Of a stretch of 64,000 nucleotides of DNA, positions 3,552-64,000 are shown piece after piece. The notes under the pieces are model-generated. The model ran no database searches and had not been told where the DNA came from. It saw only the letters and a program-made list of their open reading frames with translations. Position 1 is the first letter of the stretch. Each line of letters begins with the position of its first letter. The position numbers and the translations under genes are program-made. The stretch is from the NCBI RefSeq assembly GCF_026151205.1, contig NC_087081.1:7747246-7811245 (forward strand), in the 5' to 3' direction. Origin of the DNA: Bolinopsis microptera. Lineage: Eukaryota > Ctenophora > Tentaculata > Lobata > Bolinopsidae.

Positions 3552-5049
3552 ATAATATTATATTGATCTGAATAACACAGGTGGGAGGGTGAGCCAATCA
3601 GTTTTCAGCAATGACCAATCAAAACCGGGGATCGCCGTCACGAGTAAAAACAAATTTGGTTAATTTACCCTCTGTTATCTAAATTCATTTACCATATCTA
3701 TTAGTTTTTTAGTTAAAAATATTTTAATCATTAGGTTAAATTGAGCAGAAACGTGAGTAGAAACATTTTAGTCATAATAATATGTTGAAACATTTGAAAT
3801 AAAACTGCTTTATCTTAAAGGAATTACCGTATAATGTCTATTTCTAGATTTGTTTGATTATTTATAAGTTAAGATATCTAAAAAATTTCTGGATTTGAAT
3901 TTGCTTCAAGACTATATAATTTCATGCAGTTTCTATCGTGCAGTTTCTATCGTATCGTGTTAATTTTCTATCATGTTTTATTTTCTATTGTGTTGGTTTG
4001 ATGTTTTAGTTCTGACAATTAAAATGTTGATAACTTAAAATTTCAATTTTTAAAATCTTACTCAATAGTCTCACTGCTATTTAAAAACACAATATGGTAC
4101 ATCATGTTGTGATGTTGTATTTACTGGAACACTATATTCCAAATCTATCTAATAACTGTAGATATTTTCTCTATGATAGTATCACGTGGTATAGTTAGTT
4201 AACTAGACTTCATTGACCCTGTTACAGGAGTATACACTACACTGTCTTAATTTGTACTTGTAGACGACCAAAAGGGAGATTTTTTAGTAGCCAGCTGGTT
4301 AAAATTACCAAAACATTTATCATGTTACAATATAATTATATGTCAACGACCTCCAATCCCTAAATAAAATTTGTGGCTAGTTTATAATATCTTATTAGTT
4401 ATTTGGTATTCTTGATGATAAGTGTCATCCCGATACCCGTTATTTTTTCCCGATCCATGACTCAAAGTGCCGAAGGCACAAAAGAGTCAAGGACAAGGGT
4501 TAGCAATCGAGGTTTTTTTGGGGATATGGTAGCTTTGCGACCGTGCGACCGTGCGAGCGTGCGTGCCTGCGTACGTGTCGCCCACGTGTCTGCCTGCGCA
4601 AAGTTATTTTGCGCGAAAATCTGAATTAAACAATTGTTGGCGCGCGGTGCTGAAATGTTCAAGTACATTGTTAATTTCACCATGTACGCATCCCGCTAGG
4701 GACTAATTGATAGCATAGTATTATTATTTTGAGTTAGTATTACTATTTTGCACAGATCCGTGTCAGGTTGCATAAACAATAAACATATGGTTACATAGAA
4801 ATATACACGATTTTCAAATTAAATATGGAATTATATCAACTGGGCGGCGCTCGGCCTGTCACTCCGCCATATCTGCATGCTTATAAACAGTAAAGACTGG
4901 GGTTCCCAGGTGGTATGGAATATGATCAAATACTCCATCACGGATCGGGAAATTGAGCGGCCATCCACAAAAGAAAAGCGGCCGCATTTCTTGTTAATCA
5001 TGCTTATTAAAAAATTTGACATTAATATATACGAAACTTTCTATCAGGA
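3552..5049. other. Intergenic, AT-rich, with one GC-rich patch
   Basis: No convincing gene. An AATAAA-type site near 3797 could end the F-box transcript. A GC-rich patch at about 4537-4592 repeats GTGCG-like words, unlike its AT-rich surroundings. A compact hairpin lies at 4459-4488. Short open frames here lack recognisable domains. Confidence 0.5.
4459..4488. repeat. Nested inverted repeat (hairpin)
   Basis: GACTC pairs with GAGTC, and inside it GTGCC-GAA-GGCAC forms a perfect 5-bp stem with a 3-base loop. Adjacent to the GC-rich patch; may be part of a small mobile element or just a stable hairpin. Confidence 0.5.
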
Positions 5050-16300: not shown

Positions 16301-16697
16301 TTATAAGTAACAATAAATTAAATCAGATTTGATAATAATTATTTTATTCAGCTTCCTAAGAGTCCATGCTACTTACCGGCCGTCCGCGGTCATGTTCCTT
16401 CTTAAACAGTACCTACGGTCAACATAATTATGACATAATGTTACTAGCATTGCTACAATCCTACTTGCTACATCTGCACAACTATAAGAGTTGTTAAACT
16501 GCTGAAGGTTAATCCTTAATTATCCTTTATTAAACATCGTAATCCTTCCTTCATTTCTCAAATGATTGTAATTTTATTACTCTTCTTTCTTATGTTTTAA
16601 ATAATCCCCTCAAAGCTTCTACGAAGAATTAAAATTCACTTTATTCCAAAGTTGTATTATTGTCCTACTACTATTAATATGCGAACCCCCCACCCCC

Positions 16698-16732
<35 letters not shown>

Positions 16733-18459: not shown

Positions 18460-21452
18460 GGGGGGGGGGGGGGGACATTGGGGACATTTGAGACATTGGA
18501 GACAAAGCTTTTGGAGACATTGGAGACACTGGAGACGTAGATGTATGATTGGAGAAAGAGGAGGATTTAGGAGGAGGATGACCCAGGAGAAGGACTCAGG
18601 AGGAGAAGGAGGAGGATGAGGACTCAGGAAGAGGACTCAGGAGGACTGAGAAGGAGGAGGACTGAGGATGGTTGTGGAGGATGGCTGAGGAGGATGGCTG
18701 AGGAGGATGACTGAGGAGGAGGATCTAGGAGGATAAGGACCCAGGAAGAGGAGGACCCAGGAGGAGGAGGAGGAGGACTCAGGAGGAGGACTCAGGAAGA
18801 GGACTGAGGAGGACAGAGAAGGAGGAGGACTGAGGAGTACTGAGGAGGATGGCTGAGGAGGATGACTGAGGAGGATGACTGAGAGGGAGGAGGAGGAGAA
18901 GAAGGACTGAGGAGAAGGAGAAGGAGGAGGACCTAGGAGGATGAGGACCCAGGAGGAGGACTCAGGAGGAAGAGGAAGAGGACTCAGGAGGACTGAAAAG
19001 GAAGAGGACTGAGGAGAACTGAGGTGGAGGAGGACTGAATAGGAGGAGGAGGGGGGACTGGGGGAGGACTGAGGATGAAGAAGACTGACGAGAAGGATGA
19101 GGAGGAGGACTGAGGACTGAGGAGGATGAAGAGGAGGAAGACCCAGGAGGAGGAGGGATGAGGACTGAGGAGGATGGCTGAGGAGGATGGCTGAGGAGGA
19201 TGACTGAGGAGGATGACTGAGAGGGAGGAGGAGGAAGAGGACTGAGGAGGAGTAACACTGAGGAGGAGAAAGAGGAGGACCTAGGAGGAGGTGGACCCAG
19301 AAGGAGGACTCAGGAGGAGGAGGAGATCTGAGGAAGAGGACTGAGGAGGACTGAGAAGGACTGAGGAGGAGAAGGAGAAGGTGGAGGAACTAAGAGGAGG
19401 ATGAACCAGGAGGAGGACTTAGGAGGAGGACTTAGGAGGAATGAGAAGGAGGAGGACTCAGGAGAACTGATGAGGAGGAGGAGGAGGACTGAATAGGAGG
19501 AGGGGGACTGGGGAGGACTGAGGAGGAGGAGGACTGACGAGAAGGATGAGGAGGAGGACTGAGGACTGAGGAGGATGAAGAGGAGGAAGACCCAGGAGGA
19601 GGAGGGATGAGGACTGATGAGGACTGAGGAGGATGGCTGAGGAGGATGGCTGAGGAAGATGACTGAGAGGGAGGAGGAGGAAGAGGACTGAGGAGGAGGA
19701 GTGGGACTGAGGAGGAGAAAGAGGAGGACCTAGGAGAAGGAGGACCCAGAAGGAGGACTCAGGAGGAGGAGGAGATCTCAGGAAGAGGACTGAGGAGGAC
19801 TGAGAGGGAGGAGGACTCAGGAGTACTGAAGAGGATGACTGAGGAGGAGGAGGAGAAGGGGAAAGACTGAGGAGGAGAAGGAGAAGGTGGAGGAACTAAG
19901 AGGAGGATGAACCAGGAGGAGGACTCAGGAGGAAGAGGAGGAGGACTCAGGAGGAGGACTTAGGAGGAATGAGAAGGAGGAGGACTGAGGAGAACTGAGG
20001 AGGAGGAGGAGGAGGACTGAATAGGAGGAGGAGGAGGGGGACTGGGGAGGACTGAGGAAGAGGAGGAGGATGAAGAGGACCCAGGAGGAGGAGGACTGAA
20101 GAGGAGGATGAGGATGAGGACTGAGGAGGAGGAGGAGGACTGAGGAGGATGGCTGAGGAGGATGACTGAGAGGGAGGAGGAGGACTGAGGAGGAGGAGGA
20201 GAAGGACTGAGGAGGAGAAGGAGGAGGACCTAGGAGGAGGAGTACTGATGAGGAGGACTGATGAGGATGGCTGAGGAGGATGGCTGAGGAGGATGGCTGA
20301 GGAGGATGGCTGAGGAGGATGGCTGAGGAGCACGGCTGAGGAGGATGGCTGAGGAGGATGACTGAGGAGGATGACTGAGAGGGAGGAGGAGGAGGAGGAG
20401 AAGGACTGAGGAGAAGGAGGAGAAGGAGGAGGACCTAGGAGGAGGAGGACTCAGGAAGAGGAGGAGGACTCAGGAGGAGGACTTACAAGGAGGAGGACTG
20501 AGGAGAACTGAGGAGGAGGAGGATGAGGACTGAATAGGAGGAGGATGGGGACTGGGGGAGGACTGAGGAGGAGGGGGACTTGGGGAGGACTGATGAGGAG
20601 GAGGAAGACTGACGAGAAGGATGAGGAGGAGGACTGAGGAGGAGGACTGATGATTGAGGAGGAAGAGGAGGATGATGAAGAGGAGTAGGAGGACCCAGGA
20701 GGTCCGGAGGAGGAACCAGGAGGAGGACCAAGGTCCCAGGAGGAAGACTGGGGAGGACTGAGGAAGAGGAGGAGGATGAAGAGGACCCAGGAGGAGGAGG
20801 ACTGAAGAGGAGGATGAGGATGAGGACTGAGGAGGAGGAGGAGGACTGAGGAGGATGGATGAGGAGGATGACTGAGAGGGAGGAGGAGGACTGAGGAGGA
20901 GGAGGAGAAGGACTGAGGAGGAGAAGGAGGAGGACCTAGGAGGAGGAGTACTGATGAGGAGGACCTGATGAGGATGGCTGAGGAGGATGGCTGAGGAGGA
21001 TGGCTGAGGAGGATGGCTGAGGAGCACGGCTGAGGAGGATGGCTGAGGAGGATGACTGAGGAGGATGACTGAGAGGGAGGAGGAGGAGAGAGGAGAAGGA
21101 CTGAGGAGGAGGAGGAGAAGGAGGAGGACCTAGGAGGAGGAGGACTCAGGAAGAGGAGGAGGACTCAGGAGGAGGACTTACAAGGAGGAGGACTGAGGAG
21201 AAACTGAGGAGGAGGAGGATGAGGACTGAATAGGAGGAGGATGGGGGACTGGGGGAGGGACTGAGGAGGAGGGGGACTTGGGGAGGACCTGATGAGGAGG
21301 GAGGAAAGATGACGAGAAGGATGAGGAGGAGGACTGAGGAGGAGGACTGATGATTGAGGAGGAAGAGGAGGATGATGAAGAGGAGTAGGAGGACCCAGGA
21401 GGTCCGGAGGAGGAACCAGGAGGAGGACCAAGGTCCCAGGAGGAAGACTCCC

Positions 21453-21453
<1 letters not shown>
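18460..21453. repeat. 3 kb purine-rich (GGA-type) satellite
   Basis: Begins with a 15-base G run and consists almost entirely of GAGGA, GGACTGAGGA, GGATGGCTGA and GGACCCAGGA words on the plus strand. Long open frames on the minus strand are Ser/Pro/Leu low complexity. Larger internal duplications are visible (about 450 bp near 19085/19533 and about 705 bp at 20041/20747). Confidence 0.9.
20041..21449. repeat. About 705-bp tandem duplication inside the purine satellite
   Basis: 20041-20746 and 20747-21449 share the same order of words, including the rare markers GGTCCGGAGGAGGAACC and CCAAGGTCCCAGGAGGAAG at the end of each copy (about 20702 and 21402). Differences are mostly single-base indels. 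Confidence 0.75.

Positions 21454-21505
<52 letters not shown>
21454..21505. repeat. 52-base C run ending the purine satellite
   Basis: The purine array (plus strand) switches abruptly to 52 consecutive cytosines, then to unrelated sequence (TTTAAGCACTCGG). The strand-asymmetry flip at this point is suspicious of an artefact or junction. Confidence 0.8.
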
Positions 21506-43154: not shown

Positions 43155-44332
43155 TTATACATCAACGGCATACATAATTGTCATAACTACTTCTACTAAG
43201 TCCGATCTACGCCAGATAACCCTGTCCCGCATCAGGGTTCGCAGTTCCTCTTTAGAGTTTGTCCCAACTTCCTTCAGTAACATAGACAAGTAGCTTTGTC
43301 TAGGTCGGCCTTGCTGTGATCTACCGTGCGTAGGTTCCCATAAGACTAAATCACTGGAAAGTAGATCAGGATGTCGGATGCAGTGTCCCGCCATTTTTAA
43401 TCCCCTGCTTCGTAATTTGTTTGACAGCCTTGGTAGGCTACCATACAAAGTTATATTGCTGACCTTGTCCTTCCATGAGATACCCAGCACCATACGCAAC
43501 ATTTTTTTGTATGTCCAGTCCAACCTTTTCTCTGATCCGTAAAGCAGTACTGATTCACAAGCTGCTTTGAACAATCTAATCTTAAGGCTCTTTGAGTGTT
43601 TAGATTTCCAGATATCCTTCAGTCTATGTAGGGCACCCCACGCATTTCCCTTTCTAACCCTTATCTCCCTATCTGTGCTCTCAATCCAGGAGCCTAAGTA
43701 GATGAAATCATTCACATTTTCTACGGCTTCCCCGGATCGACTTTGAAGGTCGCTAGATCGATCCTCCATATTCAGTGTCATGACCTTGGTCTTGCCTTCG
43801 TTTATCTGTAGTCCCACGCTTGCTGCCGATGATTCTAATCTGAGCAGGAACTCGTCAGCCTTGTCCATGTCCTCAGATAAAAGTGCTATATCATCTGCAA
43901 AGTCCACATCGGTCATGATCTTGGGCCCCACTCTTCTGCTTTTTCTACATTCGAGAGTGAGTCCAAGTCGCTCCGTATCATCGCCTATGGCTTGCCTCAT
44001 GCAGTAGTCAATAACTATTGCAAAGAGGTAAGGTGCTAAGGTATCACCCTGTAACACACCTGCAAGTATTTCGAACAATTCCGTTTCTCCGTCTGGAGTT
44101 AGGACTTTGGCCATTGTCTTCTCGTACATGAGCCGTATAAGCTGTACGATTTTGATTGGAATACCGTAACTGTAAGCTTCTAGAATCTTGAGCATTTTCC
44201 CACGATGTACACTGTCGAAAGCCTTCTTAAAGTCTATAAATGTCAGAACAGCTGGCAGTTTCCGACTCTTGACACCCTCTATAAGACGCCTCAGTATCTG
44301 CTGAGTTGTTGAATTGTCATAAACATTACAGA
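43155..44332 (-). CDS. Reverse transcriptase C-terminal part of a LINE (RTE/CR1-like), 5'-truncated
   Basis: The frame is open from about 44350 down to the TAA at 43155 with no break. Ahead of the first Met (44195) it already reads LIEGVKSRKLPAVLTFIDF and KKAFDSVHRGKM, containing the motif A Asp of RT palm domains. Then come GVLQGDTLAPYLFAIVIDY (QGD, motif B region), DVDFADDIALLSEDM (FADD catalytic pair), and LGLQINEGKTKVM-type blocks; the C-terminus has the GRPRQSY...RDRVIWR region usual in such elements. The N-terminal endonuclease and part of the fingers are missing. As the coding frame is intact, the insertion may be young, or this copy may simply be lucky. Confidence 0.8.
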
Positions 44333-44353
44333 TATAAACGTTTATAATATAGA
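43165..44353 (-). mobile_element. 5'-truncated LINE insertion with 14-bp target-site duplication
   Basis: AACGTTATACATCA occurs at 43151-43164 and again at 44354-44367, exactly bracketing the RT sequence. This is a normal length for target-primed reverse transcription. The element is about 1.19 kb; its 3' end is at the lower coordinate. Confidence 0.75.
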
Positions 44354-44424
44354 AACGTTATACATCACGATTTAGTGGTACCGGTTTTTTCCTTTTACCT
44401 TTGAGCCATAAACAGCTTTAAACA

Positions 44425-45663
44425 GTCTTAGAGAGTTTTAGAGAGTTTATAGTAAAAGCGATCAACCTAGTGGGGTCCTCGTGTTAAATGTAGGGTAACC
44501 CTAGTTAAACCTAAGTTAAACCTAAGTTTTAGAGAGTTTTAGAGAGTTTATAGTAAAAGCGATCAACCTAGTGGGGTCCTCGTGTTAAATGTAGGGTAAC
44601 CCTAGTTAAACCTAAGTTAAACCTAAGTTTTAGAGAGTTTTAGAGAGTTTATAGTAAAAGCGATCAACCTAGTGGGGTCCTCGTGTTAAACGTATGGTAA
44701 CCCTAGTTAAACCTAAGTTAAACCTAAGTTTTAGAGAGTTTTAGAGAGTTTATAGTAAAAGCGATCAACCTAGTGGGGGTCCTCGTGTTAAATGTAGGGT
44801 AACCCTAGTTAAACCTAAGTTAAACCTAAGTTTTAGAGAGTTTTAGAGAGTTTATAGTAAAAGCGATCAACCTAGTGGGGTCCTCGTGTTAAACGTATGG
44901 TAACCCTAGTTAAACCTAAGTTAAACCTAAGTTTTAGGGAGTTTTAGAGAGTTTATAGTGAACGCGATCAACCTAGTGGGGTCCTCATGTTAAATGTATG
45001 GTAACCCTAGTTAAACCTAAGTTAAACCTAAGTTTTAGGGAGTTTTAGAGAGTTTATAGTAAAAGCGATCAACCTAGTGGGGTCCTCGTGTTAAATGTAG
45101 GGTAACCCTAGTTAAACCTAAGTTAAACCTAAGTTTTAGGGAGTTTTAGAGAGTTTATAGTAAAAGCGATCAACCTAGTGGGGTCCTCATGTTAAATGTA
45201 GGGTAACCCTAGTTAAACCTAAGTTAAACCTAAGTTTTAGAGAGTTTTAGAGAGTTTATAGTAAAAGCGATCAACCTAGTGGGGTCCTCGTGTTAAATGT
45301 ATGGTAACCCTAGTTAAACCTAAGTTAAACCTAAGTTTTAGAGAGTTTTAAAGAGTTTATAGTAAAAGCGATCAACCTAGTGGGGTCCTCATGTTAAATG
45401 TAGGGTAACCCTAGTTAAACCTAAGTTAAACCTAAGTTTTAGGGAGTTTTAGAGAGTTTATAGTAAAAGCGATCAACCTAGTGGGGTCCTCATGTTAAAT
45501 GTAGGGTAACCCTAGTTAAACCTAAGTTAAACCTAAGTTTTAGAGAGTTTTAGAGAGTTTATAGTAAAAGCGATCAACCTAGTGGGGTCCTCGTGTTAAA
45601 TGTATGGTAACCCTAGTTAAACCTAAGTTAAACCTAAGTTTTAGAGAGTTTTAAAGAGTTTAT
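44425..45663. repeat. 101-bp minisatellite, left block (about 12 copies)
   Basis: Unit markers GCGATCAACCTAGTGGGGTC recur every 101 bases (e.g. about 44461, 44562, 44663, 44764). Each unit contains GGGTAACCC, two TTAAACCTAAG words and two TTTTAGAGAG words. Variation is limited to a few sites (CTCGTG/CTCATG, TAGGG/TATGG, GAGAG/GGGAG). Confidence 0.9.
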
Positions 45664-47582: not shown

Positions 47583-48290
47583 TTATAGTAAAAGCGATCA
47601 ACCTAGTGGGGTCCTCATGTTAAATGTAGGGTAACCCTAGTTAAACCTAAGTTAAACCTAAGTTTTAGGGAGTTTTAGAGAGTTTATAGTAAAAGCGATC
47701 AACCTAGTGGGGTCCTCGTGTTAAATGTAGGGTAACCCTAGTTAAACCTAAGTTAAACCTAAGTTTTAGGGAGTTTTAGAGAGTTTATAGTAAAAGCGAT
47801 CAACCTAGTGGGGTCCTCGTGTTAAATGTAGGGTAACCCTAGTTAAACCTAAGTTAAACCTAAGTTTTAGAGAGTTTTAGAGAGTTTATAGTAAAAGCGA
47901 TCAACCTAGTGGGGTCCTCGTGTTAAATGTAGGGTAACCCTAGTTAAACCTAAGTTAAACCTAAGTTTTAGAGAGTTTATAGTAAAAGCGATCAACCTAG
48001 TGGGGTCCTCATGTTAAATGTAGGGTAACCCTAGTTAAACCTAAGTTAAACCTAAGTTTTAGAGAGTTTTAGAGAGTTTATAGTAAAAGCGATCAACCTA
48101 GTGGGGTCCTCGTGTTAAACGTAGGGTAACCCTAGTTAAACCTAAGTTAAACCTAAGTTTTAGAGAGTTTTAGAGAGTTTATAGTAAAAGCGATCAACCT
48201 AGTGGGGTCCTCGTGTTAAATGTAGGGTAACCCTAGTTAAACCTAAGTTAAACCTAAGTTAAACCTAAGTTTTAGAGAGTTTATAGTAAA
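47583..48290. repeat. 101-bp minisatellite, right block (about 7 copies)
   Basis: Same unit as the left block, resuming at TTATAGTAAAAGCG right after the transposon. One unit lacks an internal TTTTAGAGAG, and the last has a third TTAAACCTAAG. It passes at about 48290 directly into the macrosatellite. Confidence 0.9.
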
Positions 48291-48295
48291 AGCGA

Positions 48296-48420
48296 GAACG
48301 CTCTCCAGCTCCAAAACAGTCCCCCAACTTCCATGAGAACCGCAACTGGATTTCCACACTAGGTGTGTATATGTTAGGTAATAAAAGATAGGTATCGTGA
48401 GTTTTAAGTAATATTGACAA
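48296..48420 (-). mobile_element. LINE RT fragment, truncated first copy
   Basis: Only the PIVESSCG...FGAGERxE part is present, abutting the last 101-bp minisatellite unit. This marks the left boundary of the macrosatellite. Confidence 0.55.
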
Positions 48421-49599
48421 GTGTAGCACGCTAATTGTGTGATAGTACATACAAAGACGTTTCAACAATTCCTCTCCATTATGCAACTCTAAATCTCATA
48501 TTCACACCAGTAAGAAAAAACTCTCAGCAGATCATAATGTTCACACGACCTAACACAACAAACTCACACTGCACCCATACCAACTGTAGTCACAATGTCC
48601 ACTTTCATCCACAACAAATCACGACTGCAAAAACCAAAAGGTGTCCATATACACAAGATTTCTACGTATGTAAAATTACTGTCAAAAGACTATAATATAA
48701 GGAGGGAACGATTAAAACAGCACACGATAAGATTTTCAAGCATCGCGCAAGAGCAGTTCAACAGGCCTATAAACCAAGGGCACAACATCCTGACTAAAGC
48801 GTGGGCTCAGCTCCATATATTCCAGCGATGTGAATAAATCACGCTATCACTACATACACCCAAGATCAATTTCCTTTCGTATTACTTATTAGACAATGTT
48901 AAACCTTCATATATAGCACTCATTACACACCGTAAAGGTAGACCAGAAAGGCTTACACACATTAAATCTCTATTTAACACCTAGTATCAATAACAAAGAC
49001 AAGAGTCGCGAGAAGCTAAGCGGATTTCTCTCTTCTATCTACAAACATATTCAAAGACAAATTTAAACAAATACGCACACGAACCTTCTGTTCAGTAGAA
49101 AATCATATGTACTTGGACAGAGCTTAAACACGTGTGGCTACACATCACTATTTTTCAATGTAAAATGTACCAATGAACCATTTGGATGTAACCTGTATTC
49201 AGTGTGTTGTAATTTTTCCTAATTAGCACATTTTAACTAGTTATCAGAAGCATTTATTCATTTCTACTAACTTTATAACAATTTACGACCTCTTGAAGAA
49301 GCATGCGATTGCGACGACCGTAAAATTTGCCCTCTATATACTCCTATCATCAACTTCCTTGTTTCACTGGTTCCTTGCGCGTCTCTCTCTACTATCCAAT
49401 CCGAGCTGATACATATCCAGATTCAGACTAAATCAATATCTATTCGAAACTAATTCTAATCCGAGGAGGACCACATTTGAATCGATAATCAATAGTTTTG
49501 ATCCAGTAATTTACTACGCTACATTATAATTATGCTAGTCGTAACTAATAGCTTCAAATACCCAAACATACTATTCATATGATTCTGGTACACCAAATC

Positions 49600-51123
49600 A
49601 ACTATTCACCTGTTGCTTGATTCAGGGGATACTGTTATTATACAGTAATATGATCGGTAGACAGTGGTCCGCGGGACCCGTGGTCCGAGCGACCGTTATC
49701 GGGTCCTATCTCGATACTGCCAATGGAGACCCAAGGCAGCGTGTAGGGAAAGGGCAAAGAGAATGGTGGCTCGCAGGGGAGAGAAAAGGGAAGGGGACCA
49801 GAGGGCGGGTTAAATTGAACCGAACGGAAACTACAGGAAGTGACTGAAACTCTAAACGACGCTCTAACAAACTGAATGGGACCAAAAGGCAGATTGTAGG
49901 AAATCAAAGATTGTGCCTCCAAGGAAAAGAAACCAAGCCGTAATAGACCGAACGGAAACTACAGGAAGTGACCTGAAACTCTAAACGACACCTTTAACAG
50001 AACTGAAGGGACAAAAGCAGAGTGGAGGGAATCAAAGATAGTGCTCCAAGAAAAATGAACCAAGCTTAATCAGAACCGACGGAACCTACAGGAAGTGACT
50101 GAAACTCTAAAACAAACTCCTATATCGAACTAACAGGAAAGGACGACAACACTTTAACGACACTCTATCCGAACTAACATGAACTAACACAGAACTAAAA
50201 TGGGACCAAAACCAGAGTGAGGGAATCAAAGATTGTGCTCCAGGAAAAGAGAAACAAGCTTAATAGAACCGAACGGGAAACTACAGGAAGTGACTGAAAC
50301 TCTTAACGACACTCTAACAAACTGAAGGGACCAAAGCAGAAGTGTAGGGAATCAAAGATTGTGCTCCCAGGAAAATGAAAACGCAAGCTTATAGAACCGA
50401 ACAGAAACTACAGGAAGTGACTGAAACACTAAAACACACCTAACAGAACTGAATGGGACCAAGGCAGAGTGTAGGGAATCAAAGATTGTTGCTCCAGAAA
50501 AAAGAAACCAAGCTTAATAGAACCGAACAGAACAACAGAAAGTAACAGAAACTCAAACGACACTGCAACAGAACAGAATGGGACCAAGGGCAGAGTGTAG
50601 GGAATCAAGATTGTGCTCCCAGAAAAAGAAAACCAAGCTTAACAAACCGAACCAGAAACTACAGAAAGTAACTGAAACTCTAAACGAAACTCTATCGGAA
50701 CTACAGGAAAGGACTACAACTCTTAACGACACTCTATCCGAACTAACAGGAACTGAGACAGAACTAAATGGGACCAAGCAGAGTGTAGGAATCAAAGATT
50801 GTGCACCAGGAAAAAGAAACCAAGTTAATAGAACCGGAACGGAAAACTACAGGAAGTGACTGACAACTCTTAACGACACTTTAACAGAACTGAATGGGAC
50901 CCAAAGCAGAGGATAGTAATCAAAGATTGTGATCAGGAAAAAAAACCAAGCATAACATACCGAACAGAAACAACAGGAAGTGACTGAAACTCTTAATGAC
51001 ACTTTTTTGGAGGAGGCTGATTCTGGAAACTGTTAGTAGATGGGACCGTACTGTTCACACCCCCATACCTAATAACTCCTTTACACGGCAGCTCTCAATC
51101 AACTGACGCAACTGGTTATGATG
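49600..51123 (+). CDS. Coiled-coil repeat exon, macrosatellite copy 1 (frame-broken)
   Basis: Plus-strand repeats of about 126 bp read as 42 residues = six heptads, e.g. TETLNDTLTELNGT, KIVLQEKETKLNRT and ERKLQEV, with Leu at the same heptad place in five of six heptads (Cys in the sixth). Some units carry an extra 63 bp = three heptads (LSELQERTTTLNDT type). Before the array the frame reads IQGILLLYSN...TVIGSYLDTANG; after it TLNDTFLEEA..., to a donor GATG|GTAAAT at 51123. About nine repeats. Indels break the frame in nearly every repeat, yet the heptad pattern survives. No gene name can be given. Long parallel coiled coils are typical of structural or tethering proteins; that is inference. 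Confidence 0.5.
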
Positions 51124-52689
51124 GTAAATCTTTCCTTATCTTTTAAATTTACCAGGAAATGTATAATTGTTGTATAATTGCAATATTGTTTTCATATTAA
51201 TCATTATTTAACAATTGACCAATAAAGCTCATACCACTGTTGACACTGACAAACTTATAACATTTCATAGGATTTCATTGTGGTGAACGTTACAGTGGAC
51301 TGGTGAAGCATTCAAACGAACACCACGAGGATCAAGAGACCACGAAATTGCGAAGGAGACATAACAACAACTACTGTTATACTACTATTGAAGTTTAACT
51401 TAAGTGCATGGTACACGTAAAACCTTTGAGACATATGGGCCCTGTAATCGATCTGTAATCATCTGTATCAACATTAAGTAGCTTAATATTAACATTACTT
51501 ATATACGTGTACAGCTATTAACTATTAACTATCACTAATATTATTCTATGTGACTGTATAAAACTGTAACTGACCATAATATGACGTTAAACCATTTATT
51601 ATATAAATACTGACTTAAATATAATGACTAAAATCTTTGATTTTAAAATGAAGCCTGTGTACAACTGTTAACATTAACAATTGACGAAATCAACACTTAT
51701 TATAAAAACTCAACTAATCATCTTCACTGTTCTTATGGACTTTATGAGGTCTTAAACCCTACCAGAGCATTACTTTAGAGCGGAACTGAGCGTACGACAA
51801 CAATTTACCAGATAAACAACTGACCGCTCTTTTGATCTTGAAGTTTAGCGACCCGTCCTAATAATTACAAAGTAACTGTTAAAAGGACGACTTTTAGGAT
51901 CAATATTATCGGTGCCTCATCAAATATATTATAATACCATGATAAAAAATACATAGCAGGGTCCTTCATACTTTTTAAGCTACACCTCTGGAATAATCAA
52001 AATTAACGTGTTTTATCAACAACCCCCCGACAATAAGTAGAAAAAATGCAAGAGAGTACGATGTTTAAAAAAATGATGCATTTTGATGATTTCTATCCTT
52101 ATAACTAGTTCACTCTTACATCTACCGCTTAGTACGTCTAGTGGATCATACCTACCTGATATCAAGGAACTGTCTACATGGAAGGTTTAGGAAGGTGGTA
52201 AAAGATGTACTATGAAAATGTCTTCCTTCTAATATACACTCAATCGCAAACACCTACGCAATGCATTTTTTATAGGTAAATATAATGCAATGAGGATCAT
52301 ATACTTAACCACTATCATTAGTAGGTAAGTAAGTAATAAGTAAAGATTATGACATAACTATCATAACAAGTGTCTACAAAATAACATATGCACTAAATAA
52401 AAAAATAATTTAAATGAAAAAAAAATATATTTTCATCAAACCTCTTAATAAAATTATCAAATTACATTTTATTAATTAATAAAATCCTATACATTATCTA
52501 TATAATAATTAATTCATTTAATATTCCCAGTGGGAATAAAGATTTATGAAACGCTACTTGCCACAAAGGACTGAAACCAAAGATATTCATTATGTGTCTC
52601 CTAATGCATAAATAACTGGGTCCGTTCATTTTCCTAAAACTTCATTCGAAACATTCAAATTCCAAAAATAAAAAATCATTACACTGTTT

Positions 52690-53170
52690 TTAGAAATTCA
52701 TTTCTTTCTTAAATATAATCCATCCAAACAAACTTTAAAAAGCTTAAAACTGTCAGCAGTTTCTTGACATCTGAAGGGAGTTTGTTCCAGTAAGGAATGA
52801 CTCACTATACCGGAAGAAAAGAAGACTGGAGATTCCTTAACTTTAGTTACCCCTTATTACACCTATTGGTTGGAAACTAAGATTAAAACCAATATCTGCT
52901 CAATTCTGAACAACCCGATCCATCTTCATTCAAACCACTAGTTACTTTAAAAGCTCAATAAGGTCCCCATGTATTCGCCGCTCTGCAGCGTTGTCAAAAA
53001 TGGGATATCCAGCCAGGCAGCAGTATGGAAGAGTACCCACCTCATCAATAAGACGGTAAACCGCCTCTGGACGCTCTCACAGCTCCAAAACCGTCCCCCA
53101 ACTGTCCATGAGCCGCAACATGATTCCACAATAGGTGTGTATAATGGTAGGTATAAATAGGGTATCGTGA
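52690..53170 (-). mobile_element. LINE RT C-terminal fragment, copy 2
   Basis: Minus strand: LYTPIVESSCGSW, then LESVQRRFT, RLIDEVGTLP, AERRIHGDLIE, VTSGLNE and a final SFKLFK region. This order (PI.E...W, LE.VQRRFT, E.RR..GDLIE..K, SFK..L) is the standard C-terminus of CR1/jockey-type LINE ORF2. Frame breaks are frequent. Confidence 0.65.
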
Positions 53171-54239
53171 GTTTTAGTAATATTGACAAGTTATGACGAA
53201 ATTGTGGTGGATAGTACATACAAACGTTTCAACAAATCTCCTCCTATTGCACAAATTCATATTCACACAGTAAGAAACCTCAGAGATCTTAAGTTTCATC
53301 AACGACCACCACAAACCACACTGGCCATGCACCATACCAAACTGTAACATATGTCCACTCATCACAACAAATCACGACTGCAAAACCAAAATGTGTCATA
53401 TACAAAGTTACGTGTAAATTAATGTCAAGAGCTATATATAGGGGAAACGAAGTAGAACATCACACGATAGATTTTCATATCATCGAAGAGCAGTCAACAG
53501 GCCTTTAACCAATCCTGATAATGCGTTTCTGCTCATTATCATAGTTTCACGATAAACAAGAACCAGATATTTCCTCGATATTTTAGAAATTAACTTTAAA
53601 GCACCATTAAACGTAAAGGTGACAGAACTTACTACATTAAATTATTTAACCTAGTATCCATTAACCAAGAAGAGTGGCGAGAAGCTAAGGGATTCTTTAC
53701 AACAAATTCAACAGACAAATTTAAACAAATAGCACACGAACCTCAGTTCAGTAAGATTATTATGTACTTGGACCGAGTGTAAAACGTTAGTACATCACTA
53801 TTTTCAATTGTAATGTACAATACCATTTGATGTTACCTGTATTCAGTGTGTGTAATTTTAATACAGCAATTTAACTAGTATAGAAAGCATTATTATATAC
53901 TAACAATTATAACAATTTTAGCCTGAAATGGCGTTGACGCCGAAATTTGCCCTTACTTCCTAACTACCTTGTTTCACTTGTCCTTGTCTCTTACCAACCG
54001 GATAATATCCAGATATCAGTAAATCAATATTATTCGTAACTAGTTATATCCGAGAACCCACATTTGAATCTATCAAAGTTGATCCAGTAATTTACTACGC
54101 TACAATTAATTATGCTAGTCGTAACGAAATGCATCCAAGATACCCAACATACAATTCATATATCTGGTAACCAATCAACTATTCAAACCTGTTGCTTGAT
54201 TCATGGGATACAGTTATTATACCGTAATATTTGATCTGG

Positions 54240-55701
54240 TAGAACAGTGGTCCGCGGACCGTGGTCCGCGGACCGTGATCGGGCTATCTCGATACTGCCA
54301 ATGGGACCAAGGCAGAGTGTAGGAATCAAAGATTGTGCTCCAGGAAAAAGAAAACCAAGAGCTTTAATAGAAACTAACGAAACTACAGAAGTGACAGAAA
54401 CTCAAAACGACACTCTAACAGAACTGAATGGGACCAAGGCAGAGTGTAGGGAAATCAAAGAAATGTGCTCCAGGAAAAATAAACCAAGTCATTAAATAAG
54501 AACCGAACGGAAACTACCACTGTAAGTGACTGAAACTCTAAACACACTTAACAGAACTGAATGGAACAAAAGCAAGAGTTAGGGAATCAAAGATTGTGCT
54601 CCAAGAAAAATGAACCAAGCTTAATAAACCGAACGGAGAACTAACAGGAATGACTGAAACTCTAACGAAACACCCTATCGAACTACAGGAAAGGACTACA
54701 ACTCTTAACGACACTCTATCCGACTAACAGGAACTAACACAGAACTAATGGGACCAAAACCGAGTGTAGGGTATCAAGAGATTTGTTGCCCCAGGTAAAA
54801 CGAAACCAAGCTAATAGAACCGAACGGAAACTAACAGGAAGTGACTGAAACTCTTAAACGACACTCTAACAGAACTGATGGAAACCAAAGCAGGTGTAGG
54901 GAATCAAAGATTGTGCTGCCAGGAAAAAGAAACCTCAATCTTAATAGAACCGAACAGAAACTACAGGAAGTGACTGAAACTCTAAACGACACTCTAACAG
55001 AACTGATGGACCAAGGCAGAGTGTAGGAATCAAAGATTGTGCACCAGAAAAAATAAACTATTCTTAATAAGAACCGAACAGAAACTAACAGACAAGTAAC
55101 TGAAACTCTAAACGACACTCCTAACAGGAAACAGAAATGGGACCAAGGCAGAGTGTAGGGAATCAAGGATTGTGCTCCAGGAAAAAGAAACAAGCTTAAC
55201 AGAACCGAACAGAAACTACAGAAAGTAACTGAAACTCTTAAAACTGAAACATGACGAACTAACAAGGAAAAAAAGGACTACAACTCTTAAACGACACACT
55301 ATCCGAACTAACAGTAACTAACACAGAACAAATGGGACCAAACCAGTGTAGGGAATCAAAGATTGTGCTCCAGGAAAAAGAAACCAAGCTAAATAGAACC
55401 GAACGGAAAACTACAGGAAGTGACATGAAACACTTAACGACACTTTAAACAGAAACTGAAATGGGGACCAAAGCAGAGTATAATGGAATCAAAGAAAGTG
55501 TTCAGGAAAAAAGAAACCAAGCTTAACAGAACCGAACAGAATCTACAGGAAGTGACTGAAACTCTTAATGACACTTTTTGGAGGAGGCTAGAAGTCTTAA
55601 CTGTTAGTAGATGGTTACTTCTGTTCACATCCCCCTTACCCTGAATAAGCTCTTGTATTAACACGGCACGCTACAATCACCTGACCAACTGGGATTTGAT
55701 G
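54240..55701 (+). CDS. Coiled-coil repeat exon, macrosatellite copy 2 (frame-broken)
   Basis: Same layout: a doubled GTGGTCCGCGGACC palindrome (54247-54274), YLDTANGTKAEC-like start, about nine to ten 42/63-residue heptad repeats, and end at GATG|GTAAAT (55701). Longer in-frame pieces include KLQEVTETLNDTLTEL. Confidence 0.5.
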
Positions 55702-57249
55702 GTAAATCTTTCTTACTTTTTTAATTTTCCATGAAAAGTATAATTGTTTGTATAATTGGCATAATTGTTTCTATATGCATTAATAAACAACGTGACCAGA
55801 AAAAGCACATACCACTGTTGACCTGACAAACTTATAGACATTTCAGAGGAATTTCATTGGGGGTGAACGTTACCAGGGGACTGGTGGAAGCATTTCAGAA
55901 CAACACCACGAGTAACAAGAGGACCACGAAAATTGCGAGGAGGACTGAACACAACTACTGTTATCAACTATGAAGATTAATTAAGTTCATGGTACACTGT
56001 AACCATTGTCATTGGGCCCCCTTGTAAACGCTGTAATCATCTGGAATCAACATTTAGGCTGTAATATTAACATTACTAATATACTGTTATCATCGTTAAC
56101 TATTAACTATCAACAAATATAATTCTATTAGACCTGTATTAAACTGTACTGACTTAATATGACGTAAACATTTATTTATGATAATTACGATTTACATATA
56201 ATGCCTAAAATCTTTGATATTAAGGCTGTGTTCAACTGTTAACATTAAATTTGACGAAATAACACTTATTATAAAAACTCCAACTAATCATCTGTCAGCT
56301 GTTTCATAAGACTTTATGAGGTCTTAAAACCCTACCAACATTACTTGAGAGCGAACTGAAGCGGTACGACAAACAATTTGTACCAGATAAACAACTGACG
56401 CAGCTCTTATTGAAAATTGAAGTTTAGCGACCCTCTTCCTAATAATTAACTAGTAAACTGTTAAAGGACGACTTTAGGATCAATATTTTCGGTGCCTCAT
56501 CAAATATATTATAATACCTGATAAAAAATATCAGTAGCAGGGTCCTTCTACTTTTTCAGCTACACCTCCTGGAATAAGTCCAAAATTTAACGTGTTATCA
56601 ACAACCACGACATATGGAGAAATAATGCGAAGATGAGTACATCATGGATGCTTTTTTAGATGATTTCTATGCTATTACTAGGTCACTCTTCCACTACCGC
56701 TTGTACATCTAGTGGGATATTACCTACTCTGAGTATCAATATACGTCTACCATGGTAGGTTTGGAGGTGTATAGATGTACGTAAAGAAAAAGTCATCCTT
56801 CTAAACTATCACCAATCGCTACACCTAAGCCTAATCATTTTTATAGGTAAATATAATTCTAATTAGGATCATATACTTACCTACTATCATATTATGTAAG
56901 TAAGTAGAGTAAGTGAAAGATTATGAACATAACATCACAATCACACCCAAGTCTCATATAATCATTAGCACAAAATAAAAAAATAATTTTACAAAATAAA
57001 TATATTTTTCCATCAACATTAATAATTTATCAAAATTAAATTTTATTAATTAAATAAAATCTAATACATTATCTATAAATATATAATTTCATTAATACTT
57101 CCCAGTGGAATAAAGATTTATGAGAACGCCTTCTTTGTTTGCCACAAAAGATAAACCAAAGATTATTCATTAGTTGTCTTCCTTATTGATAAATAACTGG
57201 TCTTCATTTTCCCCTAAAACTTCTTTCGCAACATAGTCCAAAAATAAAA

Positions 57250-57740
57250 ATCATTTACACTGTTTTTAGAAATCATTTCTTTCTTAAATCCTTCCAATCT
57301 ACTTAAAGCTAAAACTGTCGGCAGTTCTTGTTTGACATCTGAAGGGAGTTGTTCCAGTATGGAATGACTCGCTCCGGAAGAAAAGAAGACTGGAGATTCT
57401 TAATAACTTTAGTTACCCTCTTATTACAACCTATTGGTTGAAACATAGATTAAGACCAGATCTTGCTCATTCTGTAACAAACCCGATCCATATTCAGTCA
57501 AACCCTAGTTACATTTAAAAGCTTCAATAAGGATCCCCCCATATTCGCCAGCTCCTGCCAGCGATGTCAAATTGAGGATAATCCAGTCTGCAGCAGTAGG
57601 AAGAGTACCCACCTCATCAATAAGACGGGTAACCGCCTCATGCCGCTCTCCAGCTCCGAAAACAGTCCCTCCCAACTTCCATGAGCTCGACTGGATATCC
57701 ACAAATAGTGTGTAGATGTTATGGTATAAAATAGGGTATC
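57250..57740 (-). mobile_element. LINE RT C-terminal fragment, copy 3
   Basis: Same fragment as at 52.7 kb; VTRLIDEVGTLPTAADW and ILIEAFK are in one frame. Part of the macrosatellite unit. Confidence 0.65.
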
Positions 57741-58854
57741 GTGTAGTTTATAATATTCGACGATGTGTATGACGTAATTGTGCTTATAGTAAATAAAACG
57801 TTTCAACAATTCTCTTCCATTATTGCAACAAATTCATATACACACCAGGTAATAACTCTCAGAGATTCATATGTACATCACGACCACAACGACAAACCAC
57901 ACTGCACACCATAACCAAACTGATCATATGTCCACATCATCACAACAAATCACGACTGCAAACCAAAATCGTTCATATACAAAGTTTACGGTGTAAAATT
58001 ATGTCAAGAGCTATATATAGGGGAAACGAGTAGAACAGCACACGATAGATTTTCAGAGCATCGAAGAGCAGTCAACAGTCCTTTAACCTATCCTGATAAT
58101 GCGTTGGCTGCTCATTATTCGAGTTTCAACACGATAACATAGAACCAGATATTTCCCGTTCGAAAATTTTTAGAAATTAACTTATATAACCCCTTAAACG
58201 TAAAGTGACAAGAAGCTTACTACATTAATTTATTTAAACCTAGTAAATCAATAACAAAGAAGAGTGCGAGAAGCTTAAAGAGGGATTACTTTTAACTACA
58301 ATAATCAAAGACAAGATATGCACAAATGCACAACGAAACTGCTGTTCAGTAGATATTGAGTACATGGACAGGATGTGAAACGGTGTACATCACTATTTTC
58401 ATTAATGTACAATACCATTTGATGTTACCAGTATTCATTGTGGTGGTAATTTTAATTTAGCATTTTAACTATATAGAAGAACATTATTATAAACTATAAC
58501 ATTTATAACAATTTTTAGCCTGAAGAATGGCGTTGACGCCGAAAATTTCCCTTACTCAAACTTCCTTGTTTCACTTGTCCTTGTCTTCTTTCCAACGGAT
58601 AAATCCAGATATTCAGTAATCACAAATATTAGTCGTAACTAATTATATCCGAGAGACCACTATTTGAATCGTAATCAATAGTTGATCCATGATATTTACT
58701 ACGCTTACAATTAACTTATGCTAGTCGTAACTAATTTGGCATCCAAGATACCAAAAACATACTATTCATATGATCTTGTAACCAATCAACTATTTCACCT
58801 GTTGCTTGATTCAGGGGATACTAGTTATTAATACAGTAATATGAACTGGTAGAA

Positions 58855-60295
58855 ACAGTGGTCCGCGACCGTGGTCCGCGACCGTGATCGGGCTATCTCG
58901 ATCTACTGCCAATGGGACCAAGGCAAGTGTAGGGATCAAAGATTGTGCTCCAGGAAAAGAAACCAAGCTTAATAGAACCGAACGGAAACTACAGGAAGTG
59001 ACTGAAACTCTAAACGACACTCTAACAGAACTGAATGGGACCAAGGCAGAGTGTAGGAAATCAAAGATTGTGCTCCAGGAAAAAGAAACCAAGCTTAATA
59101 GAACCGAGCCGAACGGAAACTACAGGAAGTGACAGAAACTCTAAACGACACTTTAACACACAGATACTGAATGGACAAAAGCAAGGTGGTAGGGGAATCA
59201 CAGATTGTGCTCCAAGAAAAATGAACCAAGCGTATAAGAACCGTACGAAACTACAGGAAGTGACTGAAACTCTAAACGAACTCTACGGAACTACAGGAAA
59301 GGACTACAACTCTTAAACGACTCTCTATCAGAACTAACAGGAACTAACACAGAACTAGAAATGGGACCAAAAACAAGAGTGTAGGGAATCACTCAGATAT
59401 CTCCGGAAAAAGAAACCAAGCTTAATAGAACCCGAACGGAAAAACAAGGAAGTGACAGAAACTCTTAAACGACACTCTAACAGAACTGAATGGACCAAAG
59501 CCATTAGTGTTAAGGAATCGAAAGATTGTGCTCCAGGAAAAAAGAAACCAAGCTTAATCGAACCGAACAGAAACTAACAGGAAGGAAGTGACTTAAACTC
59601 TAAACGACACTCTAACAGAACTTGAATGGGACCAAAGCAGAGTGAGGGAATCAAGAATTGTGCACCAGAAAAAAGAAACCAAGCTTAATAGAACCGAACA
59701 GAACACAGATGTAACTGAAAACTCTAAACGACACTCAAACCACTGAATGACCGAAGGCATAGAGTAGGGAATCAGGATTAGTGCTCCAGGAAAAAGAAAC
59801 CAAGCTTAACAGAACCGAACATAAACTACAGAAAGTAACTGAAACTCTAATACGAAACACTATCGAACTATACAGGAAAGGACTACAACTCTTACGACAC
59901 TCTATCCGAACTATCAGGACTAACACAGAACTAAAATGGGACCAAAGCAGAGTGTAGGAATCAAAGATTGTGCTCCAGGAAAAAGAAACACAAGCTTAAT
60001 AAGAACCGAACGGAAACTTCAGAAGTGACTGAAACTCTTAACGACACTTTTAACAGAACTGAATTGGGACCGAAACAAGTATAGAAACAAGATTGTGTAC
60101 CAGAAAAAGAAACCAAAGCTTAACAGAACCGAACAGAAACTACAGGAAGTGACTAAACTCTTAATGACACTTTTTTGAGGAGGCTAGAAGTCTGGAAATG
60201 TTAGTAGATGGGACGTTCTGTTCACTCCCCCTTTACCATGAATAAGCTCTTTACACGTCAGCACTACAATCAACAGACCAACTGTGTTATGATGT
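58855..60295 (+). CDS. Coiled-coil repeat exon, macrosatellite copy 3 (frame-broken)
   Basis: The best preserved stretch is 58940-59130, where KETKLNRTERKLQEVTETL and NDTLTELNGTKAECRKSK are continuous in one frame, showing that the 126-bp unit is designed in multiples of seven codons. The donor reads GATG|TTAAAT here, one base off the other copies. Confidence 0.5.
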
Positions 60296-61839
60296 TAAAT
60301 CTTTCTTACTTTTTAAATTATCCAAGGAAATGTAAAATTGTTTGTAAAATTGCATAATTGTTTCATATTATCATCTTTAACAACGTGACCAGATAAAGCC
60401 ATACCACAGTTGACTGAACAAACTTATAACATTTCAGAGGATTTCATTTGGGTGAACGTTTACAGAGGGGACTGTGAAGCATTCAACAACACCACGAGAA
60501 CACGATGAACCAACAAAAATTGCGATGAGACTGAACAACAACAACTGTTATCTACTATTGAAGTTTTAATTAAGTGCATGGTACACTGTAACCTTTGTCA
60601 TTGGGCCCTGTAATCGTCTGTAATCATCTGTAATCAACCAATTACTGAAATATTAACATTACTAAAATACTGTATTAACATGTAACTATTAACTATCAAC
60701 TAATATTTTTATTCCTATGGTGACTTGTTATTAACTGTACTGAACATAAAATGACGTAAACATTTAATAATGATAATTACGTTTACATATAAACTAAAAT
60801 CTTTGGATTTTAAGCAGTGTTCAACTGTTTAAACGATAAACATTTTACGAAATCAACCACTTATTATAAAAACTTCCAACTAATCATCTGTCCCATGTTA
60901 TAATGACTTTATGAGTCTAATAAACCCTACCAACATTACTTTTCGGCGGAACTGAAGCGTACACAACAATTGTACCAGATAAAACAACTGACCGCTCTTT
61001 TGACTTGAAGTTAGCGACCCGTCCCTAATAATTATAAGTAACTGTAAAGGACGACTTTAATGATCAATATTTACGGTGCCTCATCAATTATATAATACCT
61101 GATAAAAAATATCAGTAGCAGGGTCCTTCATACTTTTTAAGCTACACCTCTGGAATAAGTCCAAAATTAACGTGTTTATCAACAACCACGACAATATGGA
61201 GAAATAATGCGAAGATGAGTACATAATGGATGCTTTTTGATGATTTCTATCGCTTTTACTAGGTCCACACTTAACATCTACCGCTTGTGTACGTCTAAGT
61301 GGAATTACCGTACTGAGATATCAAAATACTCTACATGGTAGGTTCGGAGTGTAAAGATGTAACGGATAAAAAATGTCTTCCTTCTTCTAAAATATCACCA
61401 ATCGCTACACCTAACGCATGCTTTTTAATAGGTCAAATAGTAATGCCTATGAGGATCATATACTTACCTACTATCATTAGTAGGTAAGTAAGTAAGTAAG
61501 TAAAGATTATGACATAACACATCACAAGGGTCTACAAAAATATCATTGCACAAAATAAAAAAATAATTTAAATAAATATTTTTTTCCATCAACATTAATA
61601 TTTATCAATTAAATTTATTAATTAATAAATTCTAATTACATTATCTATAAAAAATTAAATCATTAAAACTTCCCGAGGAATAAAGATTCTGAAACGCTTC
61701 TTTGCCACAAAAGGATGAAACCAAAGATAATCAATTTATGTTCTCCTTAATGCTTAAATAACTGGGTCCATCAATTATTCCCTGAAAACTTCATTCGAAA
61801 CATTCCAAAAATAAAAGTTCATTTACACTGGTTTTAAGA

Positions 61840-62345
61840 AAGTCTTTGGTTCTTTCACTTAATTCTTTCCGAATGCTAGGGTGGGGGGGGGGGGGGGGGG
61901 GGGGACTTTTAAAGCTTAAAACTGGTCGAGCGAGGGGTTCTTGACATCAGAATGGAGTTTGTTCCAGTAAGGTCGAATGTACCTTTGGACCTCCTCCCGA
62001 AGAAAAAAGAATAACTTGAGATTCGTTAACTTTAGGTTACACTCTTATTACACCTATTGGTTGAAACTAGATTAAGACCAATCTGCTCAATCTGAACAAA
62101 CCCGATCCATATTCAGTTCAAACCACTAGTGTACTTTAAAGCTTCAATAAGGTCCCAAGTATTCGCCGCTCTGCCACGTTGCCTTCAAATTGAGGAAATC
62201 CATTCTGCAAGCTGTATGGAAGAGTACCCACCTCATCAATAAAGACGGGTAAAAACCGCCTCTGGACGCTCCTCCAGCTCCAAAACAGTCCCCCCAAACT
62301 TTCCATGAGCCGCAACTGGATTCCACAATAGGTGAGTAGATGTTT
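61840..62345 (-). mobile_element. LINE RT C-terminal fragment, copy 4, with inserted G run
   Basis: Same fragment. A 22-base G run (61883-61904) plus scrambled flanks lies inside it and is absent from the copies at 52.7 and 57.3 kb. Confidence 0.65.
61883..61904. repeat. 22-base G run
   Basis: Present in only one of the macrosatellite copies, with garbled flanks; probable artefact. Confidence 0.7.
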
Positions 62346-63140
62346 AGGTATAAAATAGGGGTAACGTGAGTTTAGAGTAATATTGACATGTGTTAATGAC
62401 GTAATTGTGTGATAGTACATACAAACGTTTCAACAATTCTCTCCATTATTGCAACAAATTCATATATCCACCAGGTAAGAAAACTCTCAGAGATCTTAAT
62501 TTCATACACACCACACCGACAAACCACACTTCACCATACCAAACAGTATCATATGTCTATCCACTCATCACACCAAATCTACGACTGCAAACCAAAAGTG
62601 TCATATACACAATTTACGTGTAATTATGTCAAGAGCAATAATAGGGGAAACGAAGTAGAACAGCACATCGATAATTTTACAGAGCATCGAAGACGCAGTC
62701 AACAGTCCTTTAAACCTAACTCTATAATGCGTTGGCTGCTCATTATTCAAGTTATCACGATAACATAGAACCAGATATTTCCTTCGTATATTTTAAGAAA
62801 TTAACTTTATATATCACCAATAAACGTAAGTGACAGAAGCTTACTACATAATTTATTTAAACCTAGTATCAATAAAACATAGAATAGTGCGAGAAGCACT
62901 AAGGGATTCCATTACAACATATTCAAAGACAAATTCTTAAAACAAATAGCACACGAACCTGCTGTCAGTAGATATTATTTACTGGACGAGTGTAAAACCA
63001 GTGTGTACATCACATTTTCAATGTATATGAACAAAGCGCACTTGATGTAACCTGTATTCAGTGTGTGTAATTTTTAATTTACATTTTAACTAAAGTAATA
63101 GAACATTTTATTATTTACAAACAATTATAAACAAATTTTA

Positions 63141-63166
63141 CCTGAAGATGGCGTTGACGCCGAAAA
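63141..63166 (+). ncRNA. CTGAAGA...GAAA hairpin, hammerhead-like core (also at about 53922 and 58519)
   Basis: CCTGAAGATGGCGTTGACG followed by CCGAAAA recurs in three units. CTGANGA, a GC stem-loop (GGCG/CGCC) and GAAA are in the order of a hammerhead ribozyme catalytic core. An unpaired U at the stem base and the undefined stems I and III leave this as a resemblance only. Similar elements are known in Penelope-like retroelements. Confidence 0.25.
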
Positions 63167-63469
63167 TTGCCCTACTTCTCCCTAACTTCCTTGTTTCACT
63201 GTCCATGTCTCTGTCCACCGATAATCCAGAGATATCATTAAATCAATATAATTCGTAACTAAATATATCCGAGAGACCACTTTTGACTCGTAATCAATAG
63301 TTTGATTCCAGTAATTTACTACGCTACAATTAATATGCAAGTCGTAACTAATTGGCACCATGATACCACACATACTATTCATAATGATCTGGTAACCAAT
63401 CAACTATTCACCTGTTTGGCTTGATTCAGGGGATACAGTTTATTATACAGTAATATTGATCTGGTAGAC

Positions 63470-64000
63470 AGTGTCCGCGGACCGTGTCCGCGACCCGAGA
63501 TCGTGCTATCTCGATACTAGGCCAATGGGACCAAGGCACGAGTGTAGGGAATCAAAGATTTTGCTCCAGAAAAAGAAACCAGCTTAATAGAACCGAAACG
63601 GAAACTAACAAGGAAGTTTTTGGGGGGGGGGGGGGCGGAGTGGGGACTGAAACACTAAACGACACTCTAACAGAACTGAAAGGGACCAAAGGCAGAGTGT
63701 AGGAAACCAATTATTGTGCTCCAGGAAAAAGAAACCAAGCTTAATAGAACGAACGGAAACTACAGGAAGTGACTGAAACTCACAAACGAACACTTTCTAA
63801 CAGAACTAGAAATGGGACAAAAGCAGAGTGTAGGGAATCAAAGATTGTAGCTCCAAGAAAATCGAACCAAGCTTAATAGAACCGAACGGATACTACAGGA
63901 AGTGACTGAAACTCTAAACGAAACCTACATCGGAACTACAGTAAATGACTACAACTCTTAACGACCTCTATCCGAAACAAACAAGAAACCTAACCAGAAC
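63470..64000 (+). CDS. Coiled-coil repeat exon, macrosatellite copy 4 (partial, runs off window)
   Basis: Starts with the GTCCGCGGACC word and continues with the same 126-bp repeats to the end of the window. A 14-base G run (63622-63635) is inserted inside one repeat. Confidence 0.45.

Follow-up and report, generated by a model that had tools for sequence, protein, structure and literature searches.

A noisy macrosatellite in the Bolinopsis microptera assembly very probably contains the 3′ part of a LamG-headed, heptad-stalk gene

The window analysed here, a stretch of 64,000 nucleotides from contig NC_087081.1 (C10) of the ctenophore Bolinopsis microptera, closes with a macrosatellite of 4.6 kb units that runs on beyond the window end, and all four macrosatellite units touched by the window contain an array of 126-bp repeats (Table 1). 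To the left lies a satellite of 101-bp units, and the junction between the two, at ~48291, is abrupt. Elsewhere in the window we observed a 608-aa open reading frame (5026-6852) with ~13 near-identical 24-residue repeats ahead of C2H2 zinc fingers, and a reverse transcriptase frame on the minus strand (43155-44357; PF00078, E 2e-18). Long runs of poly-C/poly-G occur at 16686-16731, 21450-21505, 61880-61905 and 63620-63640, the last two within the noisy array. An Rfam scan of the window returned nothing at gathering thresholds. Of two glutamate receptors examined, L027 has chains of ML032222a iGluR, a Mnemiopsis protein, as its three best PDB matches, and L026 has kainate receptors as its top matches; a search for COX1 came up empty.

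Table 1 Features of the macrosatellite and its surroundings, in window numbering unless a contig is named.
Feature	Position	Strand	Basis or remark
101-bp satellite, AGTTAAACCTA units	44424-45663, 47583-48295		second block abuts the array on its left
Noisy macrosatellite, 4.6 kb units	48291..64000, on to ~86384 (C10:7833629)	+	repeat alignment
Stalk repeat array, first unit	49813..51005	+	126-bp arrays, tblastn matches
Stalk repeat array, second unit	54300..55577	+	126-bp arrays, tblastn matches
Stalk repeat array, third unit	58911..60173	+	126-bp arrays, tblastn matches
Stalk repeat array, fourth unit, truncated at window end	63516..64000	+	126-bp arrays, tblastn matches
In-frame TGA, stalk repeat 3	54611..54613; also 50056-50058, 59222-59224	+	window places by eye
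GTAAAT donor-like site, putative exon 1 end	51124..51129; also 55702-55707	+	window places by eye
Putative terminal exon 2 with stop	55847..55948; also ~51268-51364, 60438-60534	+	window places by eye
GIY-YIG fragment inside unit	53190..53730, interpolated from consensus	+	PF01541 profile
Two palindromic GTGGTCCGCGGACC motifs terminating a dispersed ~157-bp element, immediately left of the array	54247..54277	+
Other noisy macrosatellite copies	C2:16.270-16.294 Mb; C6:15.853-15.857 Mb; C8:17.0976-17.1251 Mb

In a consensus of the 14 full units, the intervals between the nine repeat starts measure 126, 126, 189, 126, 126, 126, 190 and 126 bases, the 190-base spacing likely being 189, because its extra A occurs in only 7 of the 14 units. 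As the preliminary description had proposed from the sequence, the 126-bp unit translates to 42 residues and the 189-bp variant to 63, with one leucine per heptad. Leucine keeps one register in five of the six heptads of the 42-residue unit (TELNGTK AECRESK IVLQEKE TKLNRTE QKLQEVT ETLNDTL), a regularity matched by 4 of 20,000 shuffles, and in 22 of the 25 heptads of the intact gene L004, introduced below, which none of 20,000 shuffles matched. The 42-residue unit holds three N-x-T sequons, every one immediately following a leucine, a feature absent from the preliminary description, and the second core position is mostly Thr, Ser or Lys (by eye), which would make for a weak coiled-coil core. 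Of 21 family loci, 18 show a leucine heptad register beyond chance, matched by no more than 8 of 2,000 shuffles in any of them; the exceptions are L025 (88 of 2,000), L035 (1429 of 2,000), which has another tail, and L031, where 11 aa are left. The longest plus-strand stalk frame in the window array spans 112 aa, and the longest in the 14-unit consensus 220 aa.

Downstream of the stalk repeats, the GTAAAT donor-like site reported in the preliminary description is indeed present, at the position where paralogue conservation stops (by eye, five distinct loci); in the third unit it is disturbed near 60294, and 6 of the 14 units carry an extra G at the donor G. This extra G and the 7:7 split over the A in the 190-base spacing are two further possible frame breaks beside the in-frame TGA of stalk repeat 3, whose three bases are supported in the pile-up by 14/14 (T), 12/14 (G) and 14/14 (A) units and whose position is disturbed in the fourth unit. 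The unit consensus retains the donor-like site, a predicted intron and a last exon, read as EDFIGVNVTVGLVKHFKQHHEEQEDHENCEED followed by a stop and with counterparts in four gene copies, and then passes into retroelement pieces. The GIY-YIG fragment, which we take to be Penelope-like, scored E 0.00028 and 21.6 bits against PF01541, under the cut-off of 22.6.

Upstream of the stalk repeats, the unit consensus has no AG within 54 bases of the array, the nearest lying 54 bases before it, so the exon start suggested earlier for this position was not recovered; in the source genes the exon opens far upstream, together with the head domain. We had considered the left flank as the gene's own upstream region and dropped this candidate because the ~157-bp piece is a dispersed repeat, with 357 first-look candidates genome-wide, of which the best 40 were scored. 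In tblastn searches (E up to 1e-3), the L001 and L004 proteins match the window units only from residue 210 or beyond, and the LamG domain, which occupies residues 33-175 of these queries, is absent from the units; the window thus carries only the stalk and the exon end. No unit was found to have a start or a complete open reading frame, as far as single-unit frames can be judged through the sequence noise, and the consensus stalk frame contains a stop.

Searching the whole genome with the 42-residue repeat as query revealed intact gene copies. L001 and L003 are 423-aa open frames at C1:606 kb and C1:188 kb, and L004 is a 478-aa open frame at C2:19.219 Mb. Their predicted layout comprises a hydrophobic, signal-peptide-like start, a Laminin_G_3 domain (E 6e-14 in L001, 1.5e-11 in L004), the stalk repeats, a conserved SRWDVLF...MMG end and a GT donor-like site. 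A short gap separates this site from an acceptor-like TTTCAG and a stop-bearing last exon of ~32 residues, to which exon 1 would be spliced. All four gene copies inspected have this second exon with its stop, recognised through a frame match in two of them and by eye in the other two; one of the four (C2:19.237 Mb) carries stops in its head. The DNA downstream of L004 aligns with a nine-unit consensus at 94.9% identity over 727 columns, and the stalk repeats of L001 and L004 differ with a dN/dS of 0.30, a synonymous bias. The satellite repeats resemble the gene stalk repeats by descent, and the intact genes support the earlier proposal of a coding exon of heptad repeats, with its donor site, as the origin of the sub-repeat; the further claim that a whole exon had been amplified does not hold, as the signal-peptide-like start and the LamG head are missing from the units. 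Sequence matches to the gene in the PDB were all at E 0.033 or worse.

We then measured the noise in the array against the 14-unit consensus, finding a total difference of 8.6-12.1% per unit, mostly insertions (3.6-6.7%, with 2.3-3.4% substitutions and 2.1-3.2% deletions). A MAFFT consensus at default gap costs, which gave 9-12% substitutions, far over the edit-cost alignments, served as a starting point only. The total rate is 9.8% for the stalk, against 10.6% and 10.9% elsewhere in the unit, and 3,757 (79%) of the 4,739 distinct variants are confined to a single unit. Stalk substitutions fall 57, 95 and 77 on the three codon positions with no third-position excess. All 36 pairs among nine units are 72-79% identical in one alignment, being roughly equidistant, and six adjacent unit pairs on C10 reach 83-85% by blastn. 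The adjoining 101-bp satellite is accurate, at 94-97% matches and 0-3% indels.

The noisy macrosatellite occurs on four contigs, C10, C8, C2 and C6. Between C10 (65441-86384 in window numbering) and C8 (17104194-17125133, inverted), 20,946 columns are 99.94% identical, errors included (4 mismatched and 8 gapped positions); no other stretch of >300 bp at 97% was found between or within the arrays of the four contigs, except in the accurate 101-bp satellite on C10. These data bear on the possibility that the array is real and built of old, decayed pseudogene units, its indels being true mutations. Differences do run along the whole of the units, and one stop is a true common feature, as such a history would predict; however, insertions outnumber substitutions, most variants are private, the distances are star-like, the satellite next door is nearly free of indels, and a 20.9 kb block recurs on two contigs with all its supposed mutations, leaving this explanation improbable. 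Since C10 and C8 share the 20.9 kb with its errors, the simplest reading is that one raw read was placed twice.

Gap fills made of uncorrected reads occur in long-read assemblies, and the array resembles them in that its insertion-rich sequence, with private errors, is limited to filled repeats and in that identical errors stand at two loci; it differs from other such fills in concealing a recognisable exon. The earlier suggestion that the indels are assembly noise hiding a coding frame is the most likely one, given the insertion-rich private errors. The B. microptera assembly was built from PacBio reads with wtdbg and HiRise scaffolding, its gaps were closed with TGS-GapCloser, and Illumina polishing was done with pilon (PMC10232365). 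CLR and HiFi libraries are named for three species jointly (PMC10232365), so that we infer CLR reads for B. microptera from the assembler; TGS-GapCloser would have made these particular fills. Illumina polishing is expected to mend such errors, and the 12 differing columns between C10 and C8 are the sole hint of it. An uncorrected gap fill can thus take on the look of a cryptic gene, and the position or length of the array is doubtful on one or both of C10 and C8.

The preliminary description had read the units as a serially amplified exon of a single long coiled-coil protein, spliced across consecutive units. Lengths in multiples of 21 bases, the leucine register and the donor-like site would all fit such a protein, but it would need to bypass both the stop in the last exon and the TGA in stalk repeat 3, so the units cannot join into one protein; with neither an AG close before the array nor a head and start, we consider this reading very unlikely. 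That the array is a non-coding satellite with a 21-base periodicity arisen by chance is close to inconceivable, since the same repeat runs open through the intact genes (423 and 478 aa), with a synonymous bias, and the window's short stalk frames (112 aa at most), which would suit it, are also what noise hiding a longer one would leave.

The amplified unit very probably contains a 3′ fragment of a secreted-looking LamG-stalk gene, its indels being raw long-read errors introduced by gap closing. A gene copy would have been truncated inside its stalk exon, beside a dispersed repeat, retaining the donor, a short intron, the terminal exon and the DNA beyond it, in which retroelement pieces lie; tandem amplification of this copy would then have produced the macrosatellite, with a heptad pattern inherited from the gene, and the pervasive indels would be single-molecule errors left where gaps were closed with uncorrected reads. 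Because of the TGA in stalk repeat 3, the missing head and a start that was not found, the gene copy in the satellite is most likely a dead passenger. Coding macrosatellites such as DUX4 in D4Z4 and USP17/RS447 consist of kilobase tandem units, and the Bolinopsis units are like them in containing coding-gene sequence; unlike them, they were not found to have a start or complete open reading frame and hold a headless fragment with a TGA.

The source genes belong to a large family. The L001 head, used as query, found at least 151 head matches (best 150 of 308 candidates scored), and PF13385 found at least 150 (best 150 of 251 candidates scored), a few of these being two matches of a single gene. 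We examined 21 loci, namely L001, L003, L004, L024, L025 and 16 retrieved for their open frames. All 12 proteins scanned from this set pass the Pfam cut-off for Laminin_G_3 (PF13385), and six of the 12 also pass that for Pentraxin (PF00354), at 31.9-89.9 bits; neither of the closest genes, L001 and L004, does so. Five loci (L037, L039, L040, L042 and L045) have their own expanded in-frame stalk repeats, L039 repeating LNTTREELGTVKGVLNVTQEE many times and carrying 39 sequons in 474 residues. The stalk of L034:109-1203 leads into a hydrophobic stretch and a basic tail that contains tyrosine, so that this member is possibly a membrane-bound variant. Near-identical family genes lie in opposite orientation within a contig at C1:188 kb/C1:606 kb and at C4:1.363/1.505 Mb, and may represent inverted duplications or remnants of haplotigs.

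Coiled coils also occur in neuronal pentraxins and in some other pentraxin/LamG proteins. The ctenophore genes are like these proteins in being secreted-looking and in joining a LamG/pentraxin-like head to a heptad-repeat stalk; unlike in these proteins, the head is N-terminal, the stalk is C-terminal and dense in N-x-T sequons, the family is very large, and the copies inspected apparently have two exons. Our literature searches, including ones aimed at the family, returned no paper describing these LamG-stalk genes. No such family appears in the accessible parts of papers on colloblasts (PMC6278862), Beroe (PMC11184263), the sea-anemone matrisome (PMC12549020) and ctenophore collagen IV (PMC5395295), and the terms laminin, concanavalin, pentraxin and LamG have no occurrence in the accessible main text of PMC11797021.

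Finally, we compared heads with stalks in 11 paralogue pairs, nine of them testable. L001/L004 gave a dN/dS of 1.29 in the head and 0.18 in the stalk (p 0.0007) and is the only pair below 0.05 on its own. Seven pairs pooled gave an odds ratio of 2.37 (p 0.0016, counts rounded), which fell to 1.67 (p 0.15) without L001/L004; excluded from the pool were L001/L003, near-identical with few changes, and L049/L050, L053/L054 and L057/L058, which have no usable tail. L059/L060 is reversed, at 0.17 in the head and 0.32 in the stalk, and head values are low in L051/L052 (0.13) and L053/L054 (0.27). Heads may be evolving faster than stalks, but this signal is only a lead, because the pooled result hinges on L001/L004 and other pairs are contrary.

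A broader and distinctly tentative reading is that ctenophores possess a large repertoire of secreted pentraxin/LamG-like heads on sequon-dense heptad stalks, in which stalks grow as multiples of heptads are amplified in frame and heads diversify faster, with the macrosatellite as a by-product of this stalk turnover or a donor to it; within such a repertoire, faster head change would fit molecules that serve recognition or adhesion. The larger value of the locus lies in having exposed a many-gene ctenophore set that joins a secreted-looking head to a sequon-rich stalk, a family of possible relevance to adhesion, mucus or recognition in this early-branching animal.
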